This document shows, piece after piece, positions 4,623-12,400 of a stretch of DNA of 13,808 bases. How positions within the stretch are numbered: the stretch's first letter is position 1; each line of letters starts with the position of its first letter. The translations under genes and the position numbers were made by a program. The DNA comes from JBFLXN01 sp040755715 [NCBI: Candidatus Edwardsbacteria bacterium] (lineage in GTDB: Bacteria; Edwardsbacteria; AC1; JBFLXN01). Location of the stretch: contig JBFLXN010000063.1 in assembly GCA_040755715.1 (NCBI GenBank), forward strand, positions 1 to 13,808. Direction: 5' to 3'. A model generated the notes under the pieces. That model did not search any database, had not been told where the DNA came from, and saw only the letters and a program-made list of their open reading frames with translations.

Positions 4623-4651
4623 TTGACAAAATATCTTTTAAGTTGTATAAT
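4623..4651 (+). promoter_or_regulatory. Consensus sigma70 promoter (TTGACA-N17-TATAAT)
   Basis: The -35 hexamer TTGACA is at 4623-4628 and the -10 hexamer TATAAT at 4646-4651, with exactly 17 nt between. Both match the sigma70 consensus perfectly. Transcription should start near 4658, about 435 nt upstream of propeller gene A. It lies 24 nt after the HEAT stop codon and just after an AT-only hairpin (4604-4620), so it marks the start of a new transcription unit. Confidence 0.8.
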
Positions 4652-5093: not shown

Positions 5094-5918
5094 ATGTTGA
5101 AAAAAGTAGGTTTGCTTTTATTAGCTCCTTTTTATTTCCTATTTCCCATTTTCCATTTATCTTTTGCCCAGACTGCTTGGCAAACCGACGGAGTGCCGAT
5201 TTGCACCTTTGGTGCTGACCAGATGTATCCGGTGATTGTATCGGATATAAAGGGTGGAGGAATAGTAATCTGGCAGGATTGGCGGAGCGGGAATTTGGAC
5301 ATTTATGCCCAGAGGGTAGATAGTGCAGGCAATAGGCTTTGGACCAACAATGGTGTGCCTTTAGCCGCCAGTGCTACTAATGAAAATGAGCCCAAGGCTG
5401 TGAGCGATATGCGTGGTGGTGCAATAGCGGTTTTTAACAAGGGTTCTTACAACATCTGGATTCAGAGGGTTGATAGTTCGGGCAATCCTTGCTGGGGAGT
5501 GAATGGGAAGGCTATGTGCGATAATGACAGTTTGCAGATGAGTTATAAAATTTGTTCGGATAGTGCTGGCGGGGCAATTATTGCGTGGGGCAATGCAGAT
5601 ACTTTTGAAACGGGCCTGGCTGACTGGGATGCCTATGCTCAAAGGATTGATTCTGCAGGAAATTTGTTATGGGGAGCTTCTGGAGTGGTAGTAGCGGGTG
5701 GGAGTGGAGACCAAGGCCCCAATGGAGTTGTTGAAGATATGTGTGGTGGGGTGACGATTTCTTTCGGTGTTGCTGGTCCATTTCCAGATGGTTACCTATA
5801 TGCTACTCGTTTGGACAAAGATGGCAATTTTTTGTGGGCTTCCCCAGCACCGGTCTGCACTATAGCAGGTGAAAAAGATGTAAGCATTATTTGCACCGAC
5901 GGTAGGGGGGGGGAATAA
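5094..5918 (+). CDS. T9SS-secreted beta-propeller-like protein A, N-terminal part (frame broken at G9)
   Basis: From ATG 5094 (GAGGAG at 5081-5086, 7 nt upstream) this frame gives 274 residues. A signal peptide covers about 1-26, ending in LSFAQ. About 4.5 repeats of 50-60 residues follow, each of the form W..(N/D)GVPVCT...SD..GGAIIAW.D.RSG..DIYAQRVDS.GN, as expected for propeller blades (inference). The frame stops at TAA 5916-5918 immediately after the G9 run, within GGG codons of repeat 5. The TTG at 5073 is not the likely start because it precedes the ribosome binding site and the signal peptide. If expressed as is, the product would lack the sorting domain. Substrate and role are unknown; cell-surface or secreted adhesion or binding is plausible. 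Confidence 0.75.
   Translation: MLKKVGLLLLAPFYFLFPIFHLSFAQTAWQTDGVPICTFGADQMYPVIVSDIKGGGIVIWQDWRSGNLDIYAQRVDSAGNRLWTNNGVPLAASATNENEPKAVSDMRGGAIAVFNKGSYNIWIQRVDSSGNPCWGVNGKAMCDNDSLQMSYKICSDSAGGAIIAWGNADTFETGLADWDAYAQRIDSAGNLLWGASGVVVAGGSGDQGPNGVVEDMCGGVTISFGVAGPFPDGYLYATRLDKDGNFLWASPAPVCTIAGEKDVSIICTDGRGGE
5304..5623 (+). repeat. 320-bp tract identical between genes A and B (copy A)
   Basis: Bases 5304-5623 match 7998-8317 with no difference that I can see (constant offset 2694). Substitutions resume at 5303/7997 and 5624/8318, and downstream blades diverge strongly. It encodes the end of blade 1, blade 2 and most of blade 3. Such a sharp-edged identical block inside diverged paralogs is the pattern left by gene conversion. 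Confidence 0.85.
5905..5913 (+). repeat. Poly-G run G9, candidate contingency tract of gene A
   Basis: Nine consecutive G encode the GGG glycine codons of the DGRGGGIIAW motif in repeat 5. With nine, the frame reads GAA TAA and stops; with ten, it continues into the next blade and on to the sorting domain. Runs of this length slip readily during replication. Confidence 0.7.
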
Positions 5919-6754
5919 TTGCATGGAAGGATAGACGCTCTGGCAGTTGGGATATTTATGCCCAGAGGGTAGATTCTTCTGGTGTAGTGAGATGGCAACT
6001 AAACGGTGTGCCGGTTTGCACGGCGGCATATAATCAAGAAGAGCCAGTTGTTACAAGCGATGGTGCTGGGGGGGGTGTAATTGCTTGGTATGATAATAGA
6101 GCATCTTTACCAAGCGCCGCAAACATATATGCTCAACGAGTAGATAGCACGGGAAATCCTGGCTGGAGTAATAATGGAAACCTAGTCTGTCTATTTGATA
6201 GTGTCCAGTGTTCCCCCTGCGCTACTTCTGATGGTCAGGGTGGTGCGATTGTAACTTGGTTTGACGGACGAAGTGGTTACAGTGACACCAGAAACATATT
6301 TGGGCAATGGATAGACAGCAGTGGCAATTGCCACTGGAGTGCTGGAGGACTTGCCGTTTGCACTGCACAACAATTGCAGTGGAATGATATTTACAATAGG
6401 CAAAACCAGATAATTTCTGACGGGACAGGTGGCGCAATTTTAGTCTGGCATGACTATCGGAATGGAGATGCGGATATCTACGCCCAGAGGCTTCATGGGT
6501 GGACGGGCGTGGAAGAAACTGCAGTTCATAGTTCGGAGTTCATAGTTCATAGTCTAAAAGTTTTGCCGAATCCGTTTTGTAATTTTGCCAGGGTGAGTGA
6601 TTTGCCAATGGGATTGGAAATAAAAATTTATGACATCACCGGCAGATTAGTGAAAAAAACTAAGGAGAGAATAATAGGGGAAAAACTTTCTTCCGGTGTC
6701 TACTTTATTAGAGTTGAAGGATACAAAACAACAAAAGTAGTGAAACTAAAATAA
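5915..6754 (+). CDS. T9SS-secreted beta-propeller-like protein A, C-terminal part with sorting domain
   Basis: This is the -1 continuation of the 5094 gene, with the first possible stand-alone start at GTG 5987. It holds the rest of blade 5 (IIAWKDRRSG..DIYAQRVDSSG) and blades 6-8 (GVPVCT..., W.D.RSG..). The last ~65 residues form a T9SS type A C-terminal domain: LPNPF, KIYDITGRLVKK, then SSGVYFIRVEGYKTTKVVKLK-like strands ending at the stop. With one G added at 5905-5913 the joined protein is 553 residues. A separate gene is unlikely, because 5987 lies mid-blade with no signal peptide or ribosome binding site. Blade 6 carries a further, in-frame G8 run at 6068-6075. The linker before LPNPF is built from heptamer repeats (6523-6550). 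Confidence 0.75.
   Translation: MIAWKDRRSGSWDIYAQRVDSSGVVRWQLNGVPVCTAAYNQEEPVVTSDGAGGGVIAWYDNRASLPSAANIYAQRVDSTGNPGWSNNGNLVCLFDSVQCSPCATSDGQGGAIVTWFDGRSGYSDTRNIFGQWIDSSGNCHWSAGGLAVCTAQQLQWNDIYNRQNQIISDGTGGAILVWHDYRNGDADIYAQRLHGWTGVEETAVHSSEFIVHSLKVLPNPFCNFARVSDLPMGLEIKIYDITGRLVKKTKERIIGEKLSSGVYFIRVEGYKTTKVVKLK
6523..6550 (+). repeat. Four 7-bp tandem repeats (AGTTCAT) in the linker of gene A
   Basis: The units are AGTTCAT, AGTTCGG, AGTTCAT and AGTTCAT, followed by a partial unit. They are translated as VHSSEFIVHS between the last blade and the sorting domain. The unit length is not a multiple of three, so gain or loss of one unit would shift the frame. Confidence 0.7.
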
Positions 6755-6788: not shown

Positions 6789-6842
6789 AGAATTAGGTAT
6801 GAATTTTCCTGACCCATCCACAGCGGGTTAAAAAAATAATAA

Positions 6843-6895
6843 ACCCCATTAGAGACTCCCTATTCGTTATACTCCATTTGTGTCTCTAACGGGGT
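6843..6895. repeat. Long hairpin upstream of the transposon
   Basis: ACCCCATTAGAGAC (6843-6856) pairs with GTCTCTAACGGGGT (6882-6895) at 13 of 14 positions around a 25-nt loop. The single mismatch is A-C on the + strand and becomes a G-U pair on the - strand transcript. It could stop transcripts or be a related REP-like unit. The rest of 6789-6933 shows no gene. Confidence 0.6.
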
Positions 6896-6933
6896 GAAAT
6901 ATTTATAGAGAGGAAGATTAAAATATAAGATAA

Positions 6934-7432
6934 ATCCCGTAGGGATGAAACAATAAAAAATATGGCAAATACCTACACACAAATCTATATCCATACCGTT
7001 TTTGCTGTTCAGGATAGGACATCGGTAATACAACAAACATGGAAGGAGCGTTTATATAAATACATCACAGGCATAATTCAAAATGAAGGGCATAAATTAA
7101 TTGCAATAAATGGGAGGCCCGATCATATACATATTTTTATTGGTATGAAACCACTTCAATCTATAGCGGCGTTAGTTCAAAAAATTAAGGCTAATTCTTC
7201 AAAATGGATAAATGAAAACAGATTATGCGTGGGGCGGTTTTCATGGCAGGAAGGCTATGGTGCATTTTCCTGCAGTCATTCTCAGATTGATTCTGTCGTG
7301 AAATATATCATGAATCAGGAGGTGCATCACAAAAAGGTGACATTTACGGAAGAATACCGAAGATTTTTAAAACTTTTTGATATAGAATATGATGCACGAT
7401 ATATTTTTGAAGATGTATCATCCCTACGGGAT
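6934..7432 (+). mobile_element. IS200/REP-associated Y1 transposon bounded by inverted hairpins
   Basis: The left end ATCCC-GTA-GGGAT (6934-6946) and the right end ATCCC-TAC-GGGAT (7420-7432) are each a 5-bp hairpin. As a pair, ATCCCGTAGGGATGA (6934-6948) and TCATCCCTACGGGAT (7418-7432) are exact 15-bp inverted repeats. The element is about 500 bp and contains only a Y1 transposase. IS200/IS605 ends carry subterminal hairpins, while mirror-image REP hairpins flanking the gene are typical of RAYT (TnpA-REP) loci, so a domesticated RAYT is as likely as an active insertion sequence. Confidence 0.75.
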
Positions 7433-7435
7433 TAA
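6962..7435 (+). CDS. tnpA: Y1 (HUH) transposase, IS200/REP-associated tyrosine transposase type
   Basis: This encodes 157 residues, matching Y1_Tnp/IS200-like enzymes that cut and rejoin single-stranded DNA at hairpins through a tyrosine intermediate. The HUH motif is H55-I-H57 within GRPDHIHIFIG. The catalytic tyrosine is Y115 in VVKYIMNQEVHHKK, with Q119 also conserved. The N-terminus TYTQIYIHTVFAVQDR is typical of the family. All key residues are present and the frame is intact. The last codons (SSLRD) lie inside the right-end hairpin, so coding and end sequence overlap. ATG 6962 has no clear Shine-Dalgarno sequence. The gene lies on the same strand as its neighbours, between the two propeller genes. 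Confidence 0.9.
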   Translation: MANTYTQIYIHTVFAVQDRTSVIQQTWKERLYKYITGIIQNEGHKLIAINGRPDHIHIFIGMKPLQSIAALVQKIKANSSKWINENRLCVGRFSWQEGYGAFSCSHSQIDSVVKYIMNQEVHHKKVTFTEEYRRFLKLFDIEYDARYIFEDVSSLRD

Positions 7436-7469: not shown

Positions 7470-7557
7470 GTCCCTACAGGACTTATATCTGTTGCTTGAG
7501 AAAGTTCGTAATTGTGAAGTATTTGCGAAATTCTATAATATTTTGCTCCTACAGAGC
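7470..7557. repeat. REP-like hairpins GTCC-CTACA-GGAC and GCTC-CTACA-GAGC
   Basis: Two small hairpins lie at 7470-7482 and 7545-7557. Both have 4-bp stems of different sequence around the same CTACA loop, and both have the orientation of the transposon's right end. Together with the units at 7590-7773 and the two transposon ends they form one family with covarying stems. Confidence 0.65.
7512..7539 (+). promoter_or_regulatory. Possible promoter for gene B (TTGTGA-N16-TATAAT)
   Basis: A perfect -10 TATAAT (7534-7539) is preceded at 16 nt by the weak -35 match TTGTGA (7512-7517). It is about 255 nt upstream of gene B. The local DNA is AT-rich, so a chance match is quite possible. Confidence 0.3.
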
Positions 7558-7589
7558 TAAAAGATTCACGAAATTAGATAAAGGGGTTA

Positions 7590-7773
7590 GCCTCGTAGAG
7601 GCGTTCTGTTTGTAGAATGAAAATGGCCAAGCACCTATTGTTAAATTTATATTCAGATTGAATACGATGAAAAATATTTGTTTGAATGGATTAAATAATC
7701 AGGGCGCTCCTACGGAGCTAAGAAACATTTTTTGTAATTCAATTCTACAAACAGTTAGAGCTCCTACGGAGCT
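7590..7773. repeat. Inverted pair of REP-like hairpins with 13-bp arms (BIME-like or MITE-like)
   Basis: The left unit is hairpin GCCTC-GTA-GAGGC (7590-7602) followed by CTGTTTGTAGAAT (7606-7618). The right unit is ATTCTACAAACAG (7742-7754), its exact reverse complement, followed by hairpin AGCTCC-TAC-GGAGCT (7759-7773). The ~180-bp block is thus a mirror-image pair like a BIME. Another hairpin, GCTCC-TAC-GGAGC, sits inside at 7706-7718. No coding capacity is seen, and 7436-7793 as a whole contains no gene. Confidence 0.7.
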
Positions 7774-7793
7774 TAGAAAGAAGGAAAAATAAG

Positions 7794-8612
7794 ATGAGAA
7801 AAATAGTTTTGTTTTTTGTTTTTCTAATCACTAATTCTCTAATTTCTAATCTCTGTTTTGCTCAGGTTCAGTGGACAGCCGACGGAGTGCCGATTTGCAC
7901 CGCCGGTGGTGACCAGATGAATCCGGTGATTGTGCCGGATATGAAGGGCGGAGGGATAATTATCTGGCAGGATTGGCGGAGTGGGAATTTGGACATCTAT
8001 GCCCAGAGGGTAGATAGTGCAGGCAATAGGCTTTGGACCAACAATGGTGTGCCTTTAGCCGCCAGTGCTACTAATGAAAATGAGCCCAAGGCTGTGAGCG
8101 ATATGCGTGGTGGTGCAATAGCGGTTTTTAACAAGGGTTCTTACAACATCTGGATTCAGAGGGTTGATAGTTCGGGCAATCCTTGCTGGGGAGTGAATGG
8201 GAAGGCTATGTGCGATAATGACAGTTTGCAGATGAGTTATAAAATTTGTTCGGATAGTGCTGGCGGGGCAATTATTGCGTGGGGCAATGCAGATACTTTT
8301 GAAACGGGCCTGGCTGATTGGGATGTTTATGCTCAAAGGGTTGATTCTGCTGGTAATTTGCTATGGGGAGCTTCTGGAGTGCTGGTGGCTGGCGGCCCTA
8401 ATGCCCAATATGTGGAGGGTCCAATTGAAGATACTCAGTGCGGAGCGATAATTTTTTGGCGTACTACCCCAACGAGCTTTGATGTTAGTCTATATGCGGT
8501 GCGTTTGAATAAAAATGGAACTTTCGTTTGGCCATCATCCGTGCCGGTATGTACCCTTCCAGATGTAAGAGGTTTGGGGAGTATTACTACCGACAGCAAG
8601 GGGGGGGGGTAA
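7794..8612 (+). CDS. T9SS-secreted beta-propeller-like protein B, N-terminal part (frame broken at G10)
   Basis: From ATG 7794 (AAGGA at 7781-7785, 8 nt upstream) this frame gives 272 residues: a signal peptide of about 24 residues ending in CFAQ, then about 4.5 of the same W..DGVPICT...GGGIIIWQDWRSGNLDIYAQRVDS repeats as gene A. Blades 2-3 are identical to gene A at the DNA level. The frame ends at TAA 8610-8612 directly after a G10 run in blade 5, the same blade and motif that is broken in gene A. The two genes have the same total span (1661 nt). The leader of gene B is occupied by the transposase and REP-like hairpins. Confidence 0.75.
   Translation: MRKIVLFFVFLITNSLISNLCFAQVQWTADGVPICTAGGDQMNPVIVPDMKGGGIIIWQDWRSGNLDIYAQRVDSAGNRLWTNNGVPLAASATNENEPKAVSDMRGGAIAVFNKGSYNIWIQRVDSSGNPCWGVNGKAMCDNDSLQMSYKICSDSAGGAIIAWGNADTFETGLADWDVYAQRVDSAGNLLWGASGVLVAGGPNAQYVEGPIEDTQCGAIIFWRTTPTSFDVSLYAVRLNKNGTFVWPSSVPVCTLPDVRGLGSITTDSKGGG
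7998..8317 (+). repeat. 320-bp tract identical between genes A and B (copy B)
   Basis: This is the partner of 5304-5623, in the same orientation. Recombination between the two direct copies would delete or duplicate 2694 bp, including the transposase, and fuse the genes in frame. Confidence 0.85.
8600..8609 (+). repeat. Poly-G run G10, candidate contingency tract of gene B
   Basis: Ten consecutive G encode AAG GGG GGG GGG, followed by TAA. With eleven, the reading becomes KGGGVIAWYD and continues to the sorting domain. The position corresponds to the G9 run of gene A. Confidence 0.7.
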
Positions 8613-9454
8613 TTGCCTGGTATGACCTAAGGAACAGCGCAGTTACTAAAGGTGACATCTATGCCCAGCGGGTTGACAGTGCCGGTAATGTGCTGTGGCA
8701 ATTAAACGGAGTGCCGGTGTGCACCGTGGCACAGACTCAAGAGCAAGTCGCTATCGCATCTGATGAAAGTGGTGGAGCAATTATGGCTTGGTATGATGTA
8801 AGAGGGGTGGAGGGGGTTCAAGGAAAGATTTATGCACAAAAGATAGATTCTACAGGAACATCACAGTGGACACTAAATGGTGTAGCCGTTTGCACGGCAG
8901 ACAGTCCAAGAGCTGCGCCCTGCCTTGTGAGCGATGGTTTGGGTGGTGCTATTATTTCCTGGATTGATATGCGCGACTGGGAAAATGACATCTATGCTCA
9001 GTGGTTAGATAGTTTAGGAAATCCTCAGTGGATAATTGATGGCATCCCTGTTTGTGTTGCTCCTGGAAGCCAAAACAATGATTGGTATAACCGTTCTAAT
9101 CATATCATCAGTGATGGGAAAGGTGGAGCAATTGTAGTCTGGCATGATACCAGGTCTGGAGTTGATGTTGACATTTATGCTCAAAGATTGAGAGGTCCTG
9201 AGAATGGAATAACTGAGTCTATCTCGGCTAGTGAATTCCAAAGAAATAATAAGCTTATGATACGGCCAAATCCGTTTAAGCACTATACCGAGATACACAA
9301 TTTAAAAGTTGGGTCAGAGATTAAGATTTATAATATTCTCGGCCAGTTAGTTGAAAAAAGTAAGAATCGTATAGTAGGTAAAAATCTTTCTTCCGGAATT
9401 TATTTGCTCATTGCGGAAAGTTATAAACCAATTAAAATAGTAAAACTCAAATAA
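8609..9454 (+). CDS. T9SS-secreted beta-propeller-like protein B, C-terminal part with sorting domain
   Basis: This is the -1 continuation of the 7794 gene; the frame is open back to a TTG at 8528, but upstream of the G-run it is not homologous to a blade. It contains blade 5 (VIAWYDLRNS..GDIYAQRVDS) and blades 6-8, ending in the blade 8 motif VVWHDTRSG. A T9SS type A sorting domain follows: IRPNPF, EIKIYNILGQLVEK, then SSGIYLLIAESYKPIKIVKLK-like strands at the C-terminus. With one added G the joined protein is 553 residues, the same as A. The peptidase gene follows 17 nt after the stop, so the two are probably co-transcribed. Confidence 0.75.
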   Translation, partial: VIAWYDLRNSAVTKGDIYAQRVDSAGNVLWQLNGVPVCTVAQTQEQVAIASDESGGAIMAWYDVRGVEGVQGKIYAQKIDSTGTSQWTLNGVAVCTADSPRAAPCLVSDGLGGAIISWIDMRDWENDIYAQWLDSLGNPQWIIDGIPVCVAPGSQNNDWYNRSNHIISDGKGGAIVVWHDTRSGVDVDIYAQRLRGPENGITESISASEFQRNNKLMIRPNPFKHYTEIHNLKVGSEIKIYNILGQLVEKSKNRIVGKNLSSGIYLLIAESYKPIKIVKLK

Positions 9455-9471: not shown

Positions 9472-12400
9472 ATGCCTTGGAGAAATCTCTTCTTCAGCAC
9501 AGCGGTCCTTTTGGGACTGCTTGTAGGGTTTGCTTTTGCAGACCCCGGAACAAAGGTTGTGCATCCCCAAACCGAGCTTTCAACTAACAAAATTACGGTT
9601 GAAGGTGTGGAATATGACCAGGTGAATCTACCAAGATTGCTTTCTACTGTGACCCCGGGCGAACCGCAACTACCAATGGAATTGGTCTATTTAGTAATTC
9701 CCAAAGATAAAAAAGTTGATGGGATAAATATGGTTTCCGCAATCTCTGAACCATTAGACGGAAGTTTCTATGTTTACCCAAGCCAGCCGGGTATACCCAT
9801 CGGTAGCGAAATTCCGCCATTTACTCCGCCAAATCCGGAGATTTATAACTCCAGTGAGCCTTATCCAGGCAGATTGGTGGAGATAACCGGAGATGGTTAC
9901 CTCGGTGGCTATCACATCGTCAGCCTCTTAGTCTATCCTGTTCAGTATCTGCCTGCGGAGAGAAAATTAGTGCTTTATACCAGCATTGATTTTGTCCTTC
10001 AAACCAGTCTGGGTGTTGATGGGTCGGTGCTACGACAGAGAATTACCGAAAAAGGAGCGAAACTTTATGAGGAGATGGTGAGAAAATTAGTGGCAAATCC
10101 GGAAGATATACAGGTTCAAAGTTCAAAGTTTAAAGTTCAAGGTTCAAAAATGAGTGAAAGGGGCATTGTGGCTGAACCGATTAAGATAACCGCATTGCCT
10201 TCGGAACAAAGTAGTCCGGTGGAATGTGCCATTATTACCTCAGAGGCTTTAAAATCTGAATTTGAGAGATTGGCAGATTGGAAGACGAAGAAGGGTGTGC
10301 CGACTGTGGTAAAGACCGTGGAATGGATTTATCAGAACTATTCTGGATGTGATGGGGCCGAGAAGGTGAGAAATTTTATCAAGGATGCCTATTCCTACTG
10401 GGGCACATTGTGGGTGGAATTGGCGGGGGATACGCAGATAGTCCCGTATAGAGAGGCCTATACCCTAATGCAAATGGGTAATTTCTTACCGTCTGACCTA
10501 TATTTTTCAGACTTAGATAGAAATTGGAATGCGAACGGAAATGCCATCTTTGGCGAAGTTGCAGACCTGGTTGATATGTATCCTGATGTCTTTGTCGCTC
10601 GTGCTTCGGTGGATAACCTCTCCGAAGCCCAGACACTGGTCAACAAGGTCATTGATTACGAGACCACGCCACCAATAGACTACCAGACCAGAATGCTCTT
10701 CATCGGGGCAGATTTGGACGGAGGAACCCATTCCGGACAGGCAAAGGACAGCATAGATTGGTGGTATGTGCCTCTCCGATTTGACCCAATCACCAAGTTG
10801 TATGCGACGAATTTACCACCTGCTCCTGCTTTAAATCGAACTAATGTCATTTCAGCCCTCAACTCAGGCTACGGCATTGTCAATCATTCTGACCATTCTG
10901 GGAAATATGCTTTGGGGACAGGCTCTATAACTAATGGCGGCTATATTTATAGGGATGATGTTGAGGGTCTGACCAATGGAGGAAGGCAGTCTATCTTTTA
11001 TTCCATAGGTTGTTCACCCGGCGCTTTTGACTATGACTGCATTGCAGAGCATCTCGTCACTAATCCGGCTGGCGGGGCGGTAGCCTTCATCGGGAATTCT
11101 CGCTACGGGTGGTATTACCCCGGCTCGCCCTCAAGAGGACCATCTGACCTCTATGACCAACAATTCTTCCGTGCACTTCTGGAGAGCAATTTTTATCAAT
11201 TAGGGCTCGCACACGGTGATGCTAAAATGGTTCTGATAGGAGCTTGTTGCTATGATAATGCAGAGCGATGGTGCCAGTTTGACCTCAACGCCTTCGGCGA
11301 CCCGGAGATGCCTATTTGGACAGATATACCAAAGACATTCTACTATGTTGACTACCCTACTAATATCACCATTGGACCTACTTCTTTTAAGGTTACTGTT
11401 TATGATGAAGGATTGCCAAAAGAAGGGGCTTTGGTGTGTCTACAGAAAGGCACTGAAGCTTATGCCTACGGACTTACAGATGCCAATGGCCAGATAACTT
11501 TTGATTATACACCGGAGACAACTGGCGAGGTAAATATCACTGTGACTGCTCAGAATTATCTGCCCTACCAGGGTACCTGCACGGTAACGCCTGCTTCGGG
11601 CGCCTATGTTTGCTATGAAAGCCACCAATTAAATGATGCCGAAGAATACACTACCCACGGAAATGGAGATGGTATAGCTAATCCCGGCGAAAGCGTTGGC
11701 ATGTATGTAACACTAAAAAACACCGGAACGGCTTCAACAACTCTTATCTCTTCTATAGAAATTACTACTACCGACCCTCACATTAGTCCAAGCAGTTTTC
11801 TAATTTGCTTTAGAGCCTTCATTCCGCCAGGCACGAGCTCTCGCAGCCTAAAACAAGGGGTGTTCACCGTTTCACCTTCCTGCCCCGATTACCGTCAGGT
11901 AGTATTTCATGTTAAAGTGCCCGCCACCAGCCCCACATGGACAGATAGCTTCATAGTTACGGTCAGGGCAGATTCTTTAGTTCACAGCGGGCATAAGGCA
12001 GATGGGTTTTATATCTATCCTGAAATTACAAACTATGGAGGCGGCTCTGCAAAGAATGTTGTAGGTGTTCTTCGTGCAGGAAGTGATATTGTGGTTGTTA
12101 TGGATAGTATCTCTGTCTTTGGTGAGATAAAAGCCTCTTCAACCAAGCTCAATGAAACAGATGGATTTAGCTGGAGATGGATAGACCCTTCTGTTGTTGA
12201 CCCGCCGCCGGCATTTACAATAGTAATGCGAGATGCATATAACCGGGAGTGGATACACAATTTCGCAATTGAGCATCCAGGAGCCCCAATAGAACTTACT
12301 CTTACGCCTGGACAAAAAATGATGGAATTGCGATGGAATGCGGTTTCGGATGCGGCCGGCTACAATGTCTATCGCAGTCTTGCTCAGGGGGGACCGTATA

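Follow-up and report, generated by a model that had tools for sequence, protein, structure and literature searches.

Architecture of the locus

The window (the whole 13,808-nucleotide stretch that we analysed) carries two paralogous genes, A and B, each encoding a propeller-type protein that ends in a T9SS type A sorting domain, and each broken at a long poly-G tract (Table 1). Genes including coaD, obgE and one for a HEAT repeat protein precede A, and a transposase gene separates A from B. Beyond B lies a long open reading frame (ORF) with C25-peptidase and FG-GAP assignments, whose match to PorU is weak (76.2 bits; cut-off, 420). The remaining genes include a CbiQ-type transporter, a TPR-like protein and what we take, from its translation, to be an rsmD-like methylase. 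Identity of the Obg protein reaches at most 57% in the 14 genomes tested.

Table 1 Features of the window.
Feature	Position	Strand	Remarks
TPR-like protein gene			Pfam match below cut-off
CbiQ-type transporter gene			Domain match
coaD, obgE and HEAT repeat protein genes			Ahead of gene A
Gene A	5094–6754	+	Propeller-type protein with T9SS type A sorting domain, broken at G tract
Start-codon frame of A as assembled	5094–5918	+	274 aa; four blade units and start of fifth; TAA 5916–5918
320-nt block of A	5304–5623	+	Identical to B 7998–8317
G9 tract of A	5905–5913	+	Blade 5
Continuing frame of A	5906–6754	+	Remainder of blade 5, blades 6–8, sorting domain
Predicted RNA stem-loop after A tract	5918–5988	+	z −3.25; 1 of 200 shuffles as good
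G8 tract of A	6068–6075	+	In frame, blade 6, equivalent glycine turn; GGG GGG GGT
Sorting domain (Por_Secre_tail) of A	6563–6745	+	PF18962 and TIGR04183
IS200-like Y1 transposase gene	6962–7435		PF01797; between A and B
Gene B	7794–9454	+	Paralogue of A, likewise broken at its G tract
320-nt block of B	7998–8317	+	Copy of the A block
G10 tract of B	8600–8609	+	Blade 5, site homologous to A tract; then TAA 8610–8612
Sorting domain (Por_Secre_tail) of B	9266–9424	+	PF18962 and TIGR04183
C25-peptidase/FG-GAP ORF			Long; after gene B; runs off window edge

Several smaller elements accompany these genes. A perfect TTGACA-17-TATAAT promoter-like site (4623–4651) lies about 440 bases upstream of A, one of 21 such sites found where 11.9 are expected. 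Directly 3′ of A is an imperfect 23-nt inverted repeat (6834–6904, 83%) whose loop is 25 nt long. The IS200-like transposase gene is flanked by small ATCCC-TA-GGGAT-type palindromes (6934–6946 and 7420–7432), and more, resembling CTCC-TACGG-AG, can be picked out by eye at 7470–7790; transposase and palindromes together look like a REP-associated transposase unit. Two tandem repeats are coding: AGTTCAT (4.4 copies, 6523–6553) in the linker of A, giving an HSSEFIVHS-like stretch, and GTTCAAA (five copies, 10114–10148) in the C25 ORF, giving an SSKFKVQ-like stretch. There are no Rfam matches at gathering scores.

Two propeller genes interrupted at the same blade

A preliminary description of this DNA held that the ATG frame of A closes at its G9 tract after some 4.5 blades, and that an adjacent frame supplies the rest. 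This is borne out: counted by their D..GG motif, four complete blade units and the start of a fifth precede a stop immediately beyond the tract, and the next frame resumes the same blade, adds three more and finishes in a sorting domain scoring above both cut-offs (PF18962, 30.5 bits against 27; TIGR04183, 33.7 against 23). Adding one G, as had been proposed, joins the halves into 553 residues with eight blade units, and the two frames connect solely at tract lengths of 3n+1. By eye, the N terminus is signal-peptide-like. Reinitiation past the stop was considered and rejected, the ATG at 5923 sitting by eye in the third frame. Earlier it was also claimed that equivalent glycines elsewhere in the protein use mixed codons; this holds in part, the exception being the in-frame G8 of blade 6.

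Gene B has the same lesion, which the earlier finding on A did not mention. Its eight blade units are placed as in A (one has CG for GG), its G10 tract occupies the homologous site in blade 5, and a stop codon again follows directly. The B frames connect solely at tract lengths of 3n+2, and its sorting domain likewise exceeds both cut-offs (PF18962, 30.2 bits against 27; TIGR04183, 27.4 against 23). Read across their tracts, A and B share 64% identity. Neither contains an in-frame stop besides those at the tracts, so the further disabling mutations that might have marked A as defunct were not found, and both retain ribosome-binding-like sequences. In each gene, then, tract length sets the frame of a sequence that is otherwise intact.

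Both proteins resemble T9SS type A cargo in carrying a C-terminal PF18962, TIGR04183 domain, and differ from it in that the domain lies in a different frame from the start codon. The propeller model TIGR04275 (beta_prop_Msarc) hits A on both sides of its tract and B upstream of its own (lowest E 4.8e-11); among the matches listed there is none to the later part of B. The best score, 42.2 bits, compares with a curated cut-off of 85, making A and B relatives of this repeat and not filed members. There are no sequence matches in the PDB at E ≤ 0.1. Structure models of the two halves are poor (pLDDT 58.5 and 46.5); that of the C-terminal half gives weak Foldseek matches to propeller enzymes, at a model quality too low for these to count as evidence.

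Descent and constraint of the tracts

A and B have diverged outside a 320-nt block in which they are identical, a pattern that would most simply reflect recent gene conversion, or else recent copying. The tracts lie in sequence of a different character. Synonymous differences between A and B are near saturation on either side of them (pS 0.68 over 23 codons before, 0.79 over 30 after), and the two tracts start at different codon positions and end in different last codons; it is unlikely, then, that the tract region was copied recently. Nor are the tracts simply one same sequence, since their in-frame length classes differ. Either they were retained while their flanks turned over, or they have two origins, and under both histories selection for the repeat would be likelier than drift. 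Gene conversion confined to a single blade turn may be an alternative source of the shared tract.

Downstream of the tract the comparison of A with B gives pN 0.34 against pS 0.76, with no stops, and the frame there has remained constrained. This bears on recent pseudogenisation, according to which A and B would be decaying genes whose G tracts were the first parts to break. Both copies are indeed off in the assembled sequence, and a transposase gene sits between them. Set against this, each gene has a single break, located at its tract, and keeps its ribosome-binding-like sequence along with the downstream constraint, making decay of the pair improbable.

Tract lengths against chance

Long G runs are concentrated in the window. 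Overlapping matches to G8 number seven, compared with a mean of 0.63 and a maximum of six over 200 dinucleotide shuffles. One G9 and one G10 fall within 13.8 kb; by comparison, exact G9 runs amount to 87 in about 120 Mb (0.73 per Mb, with rounded genome sizes summed) across 32 genomes with related propellers. The C25 ORF contributes a fourth long run, a G8 within its open frame.

We fixed the residues (three glycines per tract) and redrew codons from window usage in 4,000 trials; GGG makes up 19% of Gly codons outside the tracts in the ten genes. A run of at least 9 anywhere in A arises with P = 0.05 and one of at least 10 in B with P = 0.007. The two together, anywhere in the genes, appeared in 1 of the 4,000 trials, and the observed lengths at both homologous blade sites in none; multiplying the analytic probabilities for in-frame lengths gives 2.7 × 10−5. 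Three or more runs of at least 8 in A plus B occurred in 0.18% of trials. Taken alone the A tract is weakly unusual, and it is the pair that stands out. Pure coding mononucleotide tracts longer than chance, as in contingency loci, are hence clear for the pair and weak for A. The original proposal of poly-G contingency in A fares accordingly: its anatomy fits and the B tract strengthens it, while the A tract by itself carries little statistical weight.

The ten genes (12.1 kb) contain 29 coding homopolymers of at least 6 bases, of which just the two of at least 9 break a frame; the sequence is not, on this count, generally error-ridden. The same figures frame the main rival explanation, a consensus artefact in which A and B are intact in the cell and each long G tract was called one base short. 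Breaks confined to the two longest coding homopolymers, G9 and G10, would suit such an undercall, as would the constraint on the downstream frames. What gives it its standing is the shared direction of the two misses: an undercall always predicts it, programmed −1 frameshifting predicts it too, and for two independent tracts equally likely to be in any of the three frames a miss by the same step would be expected two times in nine. The other 27 homopolymers (6 to 8 bases, two G8 among them) nevertheless lie in uninterrupted frames. Moreover, miscalled tracts would in truth be even longer and still unusual, so that an undercall would remove the evidence for an off state and leave the repeat. 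We regard the artefact as unlikely, if a rival to be taken seriously; programmed frameshifting and recent decay are weaker.

Distant relatives lack the tract

A scan of 395 genomes sampled from one phylum (at most five candidates scored per genome) gave 31 with a match at E ≤ 1e-15. Forty regions drawn from it, representing some of these 31 genomes, together with one further locus, make up the 41 distinct relative regions considered here (52 loci scanned, less 11 duplicates). The best long segments of the relatives are below 47% identity. No G or C run of at least 8 occurs inside the A- or B-matched part of any of the 41; in one region a run of 7 falls within the matched part, and in one a G8 lies outside it. 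A search of the 32 genomes with related propellers for a G run of at least 8 close before a blade motif, using a narrow I-A-W motif and then a wider one (some relatives have I-T-W, for example L039), likewise found none. The family as a whole does not conserve the tract. Comparison with related genomes had been suggested as a check; it could be made as far as these relatives allow, and they are too distant to speak to variation within a species.

Other searches gave distant matches or none. Scanning genome contigs with generic blade patterns returned 16 loci (best E 3e-34, at 32% identity), none exceeding 35% best-segment identity. Three protein scans found no relatives in viral contigs; of the 45 viral stretches picked out by a DNA pattern of tract plus blade, tblastn aligned none to A or B at E ≤ 1. 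Plasmids have no match to the portion of B after its tract. In another phylum, E ≤ 0.001 is reached in 8 of 59 genomes, one of them being G001; the best match after that of G001 has E 1.9e-17. G001, a metagenome-assembled genome named Thermodesulfobacteriota, carries a propeller gene (L001) on a small contig (QNAY01000252.1) and has no match to PF18962; the gene would reflect either transfer or a misbinned contig.

Frames were also followed through the relatives. In 40 of the 41 regions no single gene changes frame; two of these have matches in two frames, which proved to belong to neighbouring genes. The distant relative L039 (positions 1487–1500, contig 78 of genome G334) shifts frame inside the gene at a similar glycine turn, with no G or C run of at least 6.

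These data weigh on a second rival, programmed −1 frameshifting (or slippage during transcription of the G tract), by which a single genotype would yield short and full-length products in a fixed ratio. An in-frame G GGG GGG heptamer is present in each tract, each gene needs a −1 shift, and in both the stop comes directly after. A few bases downstream of the A tract, moreover, a strong stem-loop is predicted (MFE −28.6). Its counterpart is missing from B, where the sequence after the tract folds no better than expected (z −0.52; wider fold, z 0.57), so a stimulatory structure is not common to the two homologues. Related propellers in the 41 regions dispense with both tract and shift, the sole exception having no G run, and a half-propeller has no evident use. 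We consider programmed slippage very improbable, more so even than decay.

A candidate pair of poly-G switches

We favour slipped-strand poly-G phase variation of two putative surface-protein paralogues, at a probability of roughly 60%. The blade 5 tracts would be hypermutable repeats at which replication slippage flips each gene reversibly on or off. An in-frame length would give the complete propeller, some 553 residues long, together with its sorting domain, to be secreted and attached to the surface. Any other length would lead to an early stop, here directly past the tract, and a half-propeller; this would keep the signal-like segment seen by eye and probably reach the periplasm but, having no sorting domain, would not be displayed. 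The assembled sequence would thus have caught both genes in the off state. A deletion bias at in-frame lengths would leave both one base short, as seen.

Poly-G contingency tracts in Campylobacter jejuni and Neisseria meningitidis are about 8–11 bases long, and tracts as long as those of A and B are established sites of slippage in both genera. Such genes, HmbR and HpuAB for example (PMC3786947, PMC4965091), are like A and B in having a poly-G tract within the reading frame, with length setting frame; they are surface-related, as A and B putatively are. A and B differ from them as propellers with a T9SS sorting domain, as paired paralogues whose tracts share one blade turn, and in being known from one consensus only. 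In meningococcus, according to PMC4085013, the OFF-to-ON frequency climbs by about four orders of magnitude between G5 and G10, with low values at G11 and G13, so that a long tract is by itself no guarantee of fast switching; the paper also cites, for C. jejuni, an insertion bias at G8–9 and a deletion bias at G10–11. The mid-gene position of the A tract counts against a switch, the emphasis of a general survey being on poly-A and poly-T near 5′ ends (PMC2831843). Bordetella pertussis (PMC1891110) offers another parallel: there too, tracts were picked by length beyond chance, and several were polymorphic, three varying within single cultures. That variation was genotyped, unlike the single consensus available for A and B.

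A more elaborate proposal treats A and B, as tandem genes, as a small device for antigen diversity, with two separate poly-G switches of different in-frame classes giving four surface states, and with gene conversion of the N-terminal blades, as the 320-nt block might suggest, changing what each state presents. We offer this tentatively and think it rather unlikely.

Implications

As a paired poly-G contingency locus, A and B are a well-supported candidate, in which the genes are new, the lineage is possibly new and the mechanism is already known. A literature search (titles and abstract openings among the matches listed) returned no report of T9SS cargo switched by poly-G tracts. Poly-G contingency loci are familiar chiefly from host-associated pathogens. 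Should the undercall be true, the locus would warn that false truncated genes arise at long G tracts in assembled genomes. If the switch is real and the bacterium environmental, it would suggest that pressure from phages or grazers, or surface attachment, favours poly-G switching outside pathogens.
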